Origin: Chloroflexota bacterium
Lineage (GTDB): Bacteria > Chloroflexota > Dehalococcoidia > JACPEP01
Length of the DNA stretch: 64,000 nt
Direction: 5' to 3'
Assembly: GCA_016183425.1 (NCBI GenBank)
Contig: JACPEP010000051.1
Span: 20,707 to 84,706, forward strand
Shown here: piece after piece, positions 10,910 through 12,254 of the stretch
How positions within the stretch are numbered: position 1 is the stretch's first letter
How the letters are laid out: each line of letters opens with the position of its first letter
Notes under the pieces: model-generated
The model's database searches: none
Seen by the model: only the letters and a program-made list of their open reading frames with translations
Told to the model about the DNA's origin: nothing
Program-made: the position numbers and the translations under genes

Positions 10910-11079
10910 AATACACAGTCTTGTGGCCAGGGATCGTCGGCGCCCTGTGGACGGCCGTCAAGCCAGGGCGATGGATAGTCCGCCTATAGTGAAGACAGCC
11001 AACAGATTGAAGGCCCTTCCATGAGACGCAAAGTGGGAATAATCCCATGAGAGATGGCAATTAACAAAAGGTGGGTAAC

Positions 11080-11505
11080 ATGGAATCTCTTCTTCAGAGT
11101 GGTGAGTTGGCGAAACGGGCTCGGGTCAGTCCGCGTACCGTTCGCTACTACGACGAGCTGGGGCTATTGCCTCCCAGCCACGTTACCGAAGGCGGTATGC
11201 GCCTTTACACCCCCACCCAACTGACTCGCCTCCAGTTTATCCGCCAGATGCAGAAGGTGGGGTTATCCCTGGAGGACATAAAGGCGGCTCTGGGGGAACC
11301 GTACCAAGCATCGGGACGCCAGGAGCGGGTGGCACGGACGTTGAAATTGCTCCAGCTTCAGCAAGCCCACATCCAGGCCCAGATGGCCGAACTCCACCGA
11401 TTGCAAAAGGAGATCGAAACCGCTCTGGAGACCATCATCGCCTGTTTCAGTTGCTACGAAGCAGAATGTCCCTCCAGTTGCCCCCAGGCAATTTGTCTAC
11501 TATAG
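11080..11505 (+). CDS. MerR-family regulator with C-terminal Cys cluster
   Basis: A 141-residue DNA-binding regulator. The winged helix is GELAKRARVSPRTVRYYDEL at about residues 8-27, followed by LPPSHVTEGGMRLYT and a typical MerR helix QLTRLQFIRQMQKVGLSLED. A long dimerisation coiled coil covers about residues 85-125. The last 20 residues are unusual: CFSCYEAECPSSCPQAIC contains five cysteines (spacing C-x2-C-x4-C-x3-C-x4-C), which could hold a metal, an Fe-S centre or a thiol switch. I chose ATG 11080 over GTG 11071 because AAAGGTGG is 5 nt before it. It heads the operon with the deiodinase-like selenoprotein and the reductive dehalogenase, and probably autoregulates through the 10864-10909 module. 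Confidence 0.85.
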   Translation: MESLLQSGELAKRARVSPRTVRYYDELGLLPPSHVTEGGMRLYTPTQLTRLQFIRQMQKVGLSLEDIKAALGEPYQASGRQERVARTLKLLQLQQAHIQAQMAELHRLQKEIETALETIIACFSCYEAECPSSCPQAICLL

Positions 11506-11603
11506 AAAGCGGCATAGAAAAAAGAGAGGAGGGTCGAAAGGGAGGATACTCTGGCCGATGGCGAAGATCCCTTTGAGTAGTGGCTAATTGAAAGGAGAAA
11601 CTC

Positions 11604-12254
11604 GTGTTGAAGGTGGATGAATATAACTATGTCTCTTTGAGAAGGCCGGAGGAGTACGCCGAGCATGCCAAGCTCTATGCCCCCTTTCGGGAGAACCTGA
11701 GGGCGGGGAGCAAGGCCCCCGACTTCACGGTGAAATCATTGGACGGCCAGGAGTTTTGTCTCTCCGACTACAAGAGGAAAAAGAACGTTGTCCTGGAGTT
11801 CGGCAGCGTCACCTGACCGCCCTTTGTGGCGAGGGTCTCGCCAATGGAGCAGCTCTACCAGGAATACAAAGACAAAGACTGCGAGTTTTTGGTCCTCTAC
11901 ACCCGGGAGGCCCACCCCAACGAAACCTACCCCCGTCACGTCTCCCATGAGCAGAAGCTTTCGTACGCACGCACCTGTCAGGAAAGATATGGCATAACCC
12001 TTCTCCCGGTTCTTGTGGAAGATATTGATGGAGAGATTCATCAGGCCTATGGCTCCATGCCCAACATGGTCTACGTGGTTGACAAATCGGGGCTCATCGC
12101 CTATAAGGCGGCCTGGCTGGAGATGGATGAGCTGAGGTGCGTCCTGGAGAACCTGGTGTGGGCCGAGGCGCCCCGGCGGGCAGAGGAAAGGAGCAGCTAC
12201 AAGGCCAAGTACTCTGAGATGCTGGTACGGCGTCGGATAAGCCTTGAGGAGTAA
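11604..12254 (+). CDS. Deiodinase-like selenoprotein (UGA = Sec71)
   Basis: A 216-residue thioredoxin-fold protein read through an in-frame TGA at 11814-11816. The upstream half (to FGSVT, residue 70) and the downstream half (PPFVARVSPMEQLYQEYK onward) are in the same frame. The joined motif LEFGSVT-U-PPF matches the active site of iodothyronine deiodinases, and the downstream YTREAHPNETYP reproduces their conserved Glu and His (EAH). Vertebrate deiodinases carry an N-terminal membrane helix; none is present here, so the protein is likely cytoplasmic. A 17-nt SECIS-like hairpin follows the TGA by 10 nt. The start is GTG 11604, 6 nt after AAAGGAG. It is 16 nt upstream of a reductive-dehalogenase-like gene. 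Reduction of carbon-halogen bonds is likely by family, but a peroxiredoxin-like role is possible. No selA, selB or selC is in the window. Confidence 0.88.
11827..11843 (+). promoter_or_regulatory. Bacterial SECIS-like hairpin
   Basis: Perfect 7-bp stem TGGCGAG / CTCGCCA with loop GGT, 17 nt in total, starting 10 nt after the TGA at 11814-11816. The E. coli fdhF element is also a 17-nt apical hairpin about 11 nt past its UGA, with GGU exposed in the loop for SelB binding. Distance, size and loop all agree. Confidence 0.82.

Follow-up and report, generated by a model that had tools for sequence, protein, structure and literature searches.

The analysis presented here concerns a stretch of 64,000 nucleotides (referred to below as the window) from contig JACPEP010000051.1 of assembly GCA_016183425.1, a Chloroflexota genome of the class Dehalococcoidia, and in particular a gene at positions 11604 to 12254 of this window, which specifies a protein of the deiodinase family and whose frame is traversed by a TGA that is probably decoded as selenocysteine (Sec, or U). 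The features recognized at the locus (Table 1) comprise, besides this coding sequence and its TGA, a ribosome-binding-site-like motif, a predicted selenocysteine insertion sequence (SECIS), and two flanking genes.

Table 1. Features of the deiodinase-like locus, in window coordinates.
Feature	Position	Strand	Basis
MerR-family regulator, 98 bases upstream, same strand	11071..11505	+	PF13411 76.9 bits
AAGGAG, ribosome-binding-site-like, GTG 6 nt further on	11592..11597	+	sequence
Deiodinase-family coding sequence, 216 residues	11604..12254	+	PF00837 75 bits; by sequence, Dio3 8.6e-16 and Dio2 8.6e-10
In-frame TGA at the catalytic position, likely selenocysteine	11814..11816	+	codon census of 109 distinct homologous sites
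Predicted bacterial SECIS hairpin, 7 bp, GGU loop at 11834-11836	11827..11843	+	folding, fixed-geometry and covariation tests
Reductive dehalogenase family protein, 427 aa	12271..13554	+	TIGR02486 182.6 bits, above the cut-off of 160.35; structure 4ras 5.2e-51

The coding sequence starts with GTG, ends with TAA (12252-12254), and contains a sole in-frame TGA, being codon 71 of 216, which lies within the residues FGSVT-U-PPF and coincides with the catalytic column of the family; no lesion other than this TGA was found across the 216 codons. The PF00837 profile recognizes a single domain which spans the TGA (residues 29-183; cut-off 27 bits), placing the protein in that family, and the associated active-site pattern SxT-U/C-P plus YxxEAH is present as S68 x T70 U71 P72 and Y99 x x E102 A H104. 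The score against the narrower NCBIfam deiodinase family NF038285 is 105.4 bits for a cut-off of 250, and the protein is therefore not filed under it. The initial annotation, made from the sequence without database searches, had proposed that the frame runs on past the TGA at 11814, with FGSVT-U-PPF at that codon and an EAH motif in the second half; this frame with its in-frame TGA is confirmed as a real observation, since PF00837 homology extends to both sides of the TGA and EAH occupies residues 102-104, the 146 codons of continuation given there being in fact 145 sense codons plus TAA. It had also expected an ordinary gene caller to report two truncated reading frames, which was correct for the part following the TGA, listed alone in the protein database as a 136-residue entry (P0002); a first part of 70 residues would fall below the length for listing, and no full-length copy was found in the protein database search. 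A PF00837 search of the host genome gave a match at this locus alone (68.2 bits, one TGA within the match). A second, decayed deiodinase-like copy, containing an internal TGA, TAG and TAA, is present elsewhere in that genome (G000:C52:58478-58867, L194).

The codon occupying the TGA column was determined at 109 distinct homologous sites, being TGA at 53, TGC or TGT, i.e. cysteine (Cys), at 52, TAA or TAG at none, and TGG, GGT, GAT and ACG at one each, so that the Sec/Cys exchange anticipated in the initial annotation for position 71 occurs exactly there. The homologous loci were drawn from 84,980 species genomes (from which the best 80 of 393 confirmed loci were used, skewing the sample toward relatives of the present gene), from viral contigs (one locus) and from same-class genomes. 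A match over the position was obtained for 122 loci (L124 and L125 had none), and removal of 11 near-duplicates and of the TlpA-like L123 and L126 left the 109 rows, some genomes contributing several sites, which are thus not equivalent to independent genomes. None of the sites was chosen by its codon: 79 were retrieved through a sequence word around the EAH motif, containing Y99, E102 and H104 (29 TGA, 47 Cys, 3 other), and 30 through whole-sequence or profile searches (24 TGA, 5 Cys, 1 other). The four loci that lack both Sec and Cys at the column (L027, L031, L086 and L118) nevertheless retain E102 and H104, L027 being a single base away from TGA and standing beside Sec relatives.

In a quick tree of 108 rows (excluding L117, which is too short past the site), at least four steps are needed to account for the changes between U and C, and the protein under study groups with L119 of the same class, with L024 and L028 from deltaproteobacteria, with L029 from Syntrophobacter and with Cys forms of thaumarchaea, in a subclade whose 13 rows are mixed (5 U, 5 C and 3 other; Shimodaira-Hasegawa-like approximate likelihood ratio support of 90). 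A viral source of the gene was rejected, a single relative having been found on viral contigs, and that one a Cys form. Likewise, an alternative genetic code with TGA read as tryptophan obtained no support: TGA terminates 2 of the 13 window genes checked, and TGG is found in 1 of the 109 rows. During this survey, two deiodinase-like matches, G142:C129 (L117) and G173:C4 (L158), were seen to contain two internal TGA codons each. Furthermore, the TlpA-like genes L121-L123, L128 and L129, from genomes G006 and G065 (two each) and G095 (one), carry a TGA inside a WUPxC motif and possibly represent another Sec family of the class.

The hairpin proposed in the initial annotation, which begins 10 nt past the TGA and has a stem of 7 bp and a GGU loop, was recovered, its loop being located 17 nt past the TGA; it may resemble the E. 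coli fdhF SECIS in geometry, as that annotation suggested. Folded alone (21 nt), it reaches -10.6 kcal/mol, a value matched by 0 of 200 shuffles. The stability of the whole stretch of 44-47 nt is not unusual when compared to shuffles (31/200 and 50/200 were equally good) and was discarded as evidence for a SECIS. The SECIS model set out in the accessible part of a 2026 review (PMC13188914) requires a loop of 3-9 nt with a G in its first two bases, an upper stem of 4-16 bp, a spacing of 16-37 nt and an energy of at most -7.5 kcal/mol, and the hairpin by itself agrees with each of these values; the same model, however, is satisfied by 51/53 TGA loci, 25/52 Cys loci and 516/636 control anchors, and such loose criteria cannot serve as proof. 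Considering this lack of specificity, stricter tests of fixed geometry and of covariation were employed.

With the spacing (17 nt) and loop size (3 nt) fixed to those of the hairpin and a stem of at least 5 bp, the geometry was found in 22 of 53 TGA loci (21/52 when the present gene is omitted), each of these 22 having G as the first or second base of the loop, and in none of 52 Cys loci. Anchors placed internally within the TGA genes, used as a control for the unequal guanine-cytosine content of the TGA and Cys groups (0.65 and 0.55), gave 88 occurrences among 10,623. In the covariation test, seven fixed base pairs were scored over 52 distinct TGA segments and 52 Cys segments against 2000 shuffles, which ignore the relatedness of the sequences: 264 of 364 cells are paired in the TGA set (shuffles 176, standard deviation 7.8; 0/2000 as high), with both sides changed in 98 cells (shuffles 42, standard deviation 5.4; 0/2000 as high), as against 120 of 364 paired cells in the Cys set (shuffles 124; 1458/2000 as high). 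When the same pairing was slid along the segments, 120 to 175 cells were paired and 26 to 62 double changes were counted. The number of pair types is not above that of shuffles (398/2000 as high). These data argue for the hairpin as the predicted SECIS element of the gene, and, covering 53 relatives, they amount to a covariation-based SECIS for the deiodinase-like family. They also bear on the possibility that a Cys codon was turned into TGA by a base-calling or assembly error, as might be considered for a genome assembled in 52 contigs: a hairpin of this geometry, encountered in 0/52 Cys loci, would not be expected in a Cys gene, making such an error scarcely credible.

The initial annotation had called for a search of the genome for selA, selB, selC and selD and had regarded the lack of all Sec-insertion genes as fatal to its proposal. 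Three of the four were found on other contigs of the host genome, namely selB (354.4 bits, 619 aa), selC (tRNA-Sec, 76.6 bits; reported by ARAGORN as tRNA-SeC with anticodon tca) and selD (396.6 bits, L010:1279-2436). The selD gene likewise contains an in-frame TGA, in the motif CAGU near the N-terminus, and its product is likely a selenoprotein as well; near selD, a further in-frame TGA, which separates a TusD-like part from a TusC-like one, was also considered as a Sec codon and looks like an ordinary stop.

What weighs against selenocysteine decoding is that selA was not found in the assembly, whose completeness is 95.31% (no match to TIGR00474, and PF03841 below its cut-off). A weak SelA match of 15.4 bits was dismissed, being by inspection a cysteine desulphurase-like gene beside an iron-sulphur scaffold gene. 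SepSecS was not found in the host assembly either, in a search that did not extend to PSTK. Among 148 same-class genomes (host included), selB scores above its cut-off in 95, of which 12 are without selA above cut-off, while selA does so in 90, of which 7 are without selB above cut-off. Because selA is missing in this way from 12 of the 95 selB-bearing genomes, the host among them, a gap in the assembly is the simplest explanation for its absence. Another explanation would be that Sec-tRNA is made without SelA, through an unknown synthase, in line with the presence of selB, selC and selD in a largely complete assembly devoid of recognizable selA and SepSecS; the losses of selA and of selB nevertheless look like dropout in both directions, and this explanation is very unlikely. 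The missing selA, together with the decayed copy elsewhere in the genome, could also be taken to mean that translation does end at the TGA and that the gene has decayed, what follows the TGA being either a remnant or a small protein in its own right. This is very unlikely, given 216 codons without a second lesion, a TGA placed precisely at the Sec/Cys column, and a hairpin geometry that recurs among TGA homologues and is absent from all 52 Cys ones.

The gene at 11604-12254 is therefore considered, with a probability of about 0.88, to encode a deiodinase-family selenoprotein whose active-site TGA is decoded as selenocysteine, on the grounds of the reading frame itself, of homology that reaches across the TGA, of the Sec/Cys exchange at its column, of a hairpin that covaries in the TGA set and not in the Cys set, and of the presence of selB, selC and selD. 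In the mechanism envisaged, the in-frame UGA would be read as Sec by SelB, guided by the downstream hairpin, and the product would be a thioredoxin-fold enzyme whose selenolate reduces a small substrate, the Sec being regenerated by cellular thiols. It is of practical relevance that the database shows only the piece following the TGA, so that the catalytic residue escapes ordinary searches.

As regards the chemistry of the enzyme, mouse Dio3 and Dio2 are the top solved structures by sequence, ResA-type proteins ranking lower. According to the available portion of PMC11592359, the proton relay of Dio2 consists of Ser, Thr, Tyr, Glu, His and His, and by alignment all six are present as S68, T70, Y99, E102, H104 and H112, which may operate as they do in Dio2. 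Over all 109 rows, E102 and H104 are retained in 109, T70 and Y99 in 104, S68 in 96 and H112 in 78, the invariance of EAH being partly built in by the search word that retrieved 79 of them; in the 30 rows obtained outside the word search, E102, H104 and T70 are retained in 30, S68 in 26, Y99 in 25 and H112 in 7. The insertion (omega) loop of deiodinases is absent, 7 residues separating the two relay histidines as aligned, compared to 16 in Dio3. In fold comparisons, the Z scores of DsbE/ResA-type chains and of the one-Cys peroxiredoxin AhpE are level with those of Dio2 and Dio3, and the fold was thus rejected as proof of deiodinase function.

Reductive dehalogenation, with a carbon-halogen bond as the target in the substrate, is proposed tentatively, the odds being somewhat against it. 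There is about an even chance that the protein, while being a selenoprotein, is a peroxidase or thiol-disulfide reductase instead, as would fit the tied folds, the missing loop, the additional profile matches to AhpC-TSA (49.7 bits) and Redoxin (42.3 bits), and the suggestion, made in the accessible text of the 2005 Sargasso Sea study (PMC1088965), of a redox function in bacteria, where thyroid hormones are not expected. This reading is countered by the retention of the six relay residues, the rank of Dio3 and Dio2 above the other listed solved structures by sequence, the lack of a cysteine at U+3 (UPPF), and the reductive dehalogenase gene located directly behind.

The ATG of that gene follows the TAA of the deiodinase-like gene after a gap of 16 bases, and the two genes are likely co-transcribed. 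Residues 94-399 of its product are covered by the match to 4ras, a reductive dehalogenase of the NpRdhA type; the neighbour belongs to another family than the deiodinase-like protein and is regarded as its likely partner only. The neighbour offers a concrete guess at the substrate class. The generality of the pairing was assessed with a profile of 120 such reductive dehalogenases (E up to 1e-3), 87 of the 109 loci extending 1.4 kb or more to either side: a reductive dehalogenase occurs nearby in 2/109 loci, i.e. the present one and L071, a proteobacterial Cys form with the dehalogenase approximately 2.6 kb downstream. Near the dehalogenase genes of 29 other loci, one weak thioredoxin-like match was found (L172, 41.6 bits), and in G023, which holds the best same-class relative, the deiodinase-like and dehalogenase genes are on separate contigs. 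A generally conserved operon of the two genes was accordingly rejected, the pairing being rare elsewhere. Ten single-contig same-class genomes (1.4 to 2.1 Mb) contain 19 to 58 first-look dehalogenase candidates, as would be expected for Dehalococcoides and Dehalogenimonas and in keeping with the class Dehalococcoidia.

The two genes might form a dehalogenation module, in which the Sec deiodinase-type enzyme would remove iodine or bromine, or else supply electrons, leaving the other halogens to the cobalamin-dependent reductive dehalogenase. Such a module is improbable; if real, it would unite selenium and B12 chemistry in one Dehalococcoidia operon. The product of the upstream MerR-family gene, which possibly regulates both genes, has a cysteine-rich tail, CFSCYEAECPSSC. 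Tails of this kind are also found in some metal sensors.

With respect to published systems, the statement in the initial annotation that deiodinase-like Sec proteins are known only sparsely in bacteria was too strong, given 53 TGA among 109 sites and, as far as the consulted part of PMC1088965 goes, Sec and Cys forms in print since 2005 on Sargasso Sea contigs judged bacterial. A table row for deiodinase-like proteins, with the numbers 22, 12 and 21 (column heads not seen), is found in the portion available of a 2008 ocean survey (PMC2398784), and the family is listed with the motif UxxC in the part of PMC13188914 cited above; a C occupies the last position of that motif in 30/109 rows, and the present protein has UPPF. 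No treatment of a deiodinase-like selenoprotein paired with a reductive dehalogenase was found among the titles and abstract openings of the open-licence papers retrieved, and it is likely that this member and its neighbourhood are unreported, its kind being already known.

The Sargasso Sea proteins, as described in that part of PMC1088965, resemble the present one in having Sec and Cys forms and, after the UGA, a SECIS of bacterial type whose small apical loop contains a guanosine. Unlike them, the gene at 11604-12254 belongs to a single assembled genome in which selB, selC and selD also occur, and it lies directly before a reductive dehalogenase gene. Animal Dio2 and Dio3 (9h48 and 4tr3) share with the bacterial protein the T-U-PPF active site (crystallised with C in place of U), the YxxEAH motif, the thioredoxin fold and the residues described for the Dio2 proton relay. 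They differ from it in that the first 30 residues of the bacterial protein contain, by eye, no hydrophobic membrane segment, that the loop between the relay histidines is shorter than in Dio3, that the residue before T-U is V rather than Cys (Dio3) or Ala (Dio2), and that the SECIS of the bacterial gene is of the bacterial kind.

Fourteen Sec deiodinase-like proteins from the same class (L113-L116, L153-L156 and L158-L163) form a clade which shares the TGA column and the PPF motif with the present protein, and is distinct from it in the tree. In this clade, 19-37 residues lie between the EAH histidine and the column of the second relay histidine, resembling the animal insertion loop, and the similarity to Dio3 is closer (3.9e-22 for L115, compared to 8.6e-16), Dio3 and Dio2 being the sole solved-structure matches of L115 at E up to 1e-3. 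The hairpin geometry described above occurs in 0/14 of these loop-bearing relatives, whose SECIS, if present, must therefore differ from it in geometry. It is possible that they are kin of the ancestor of animal deiodinases, and such same-class Sec proteins with a longer, animal-like loop bear on the origin of the animal enzymes.
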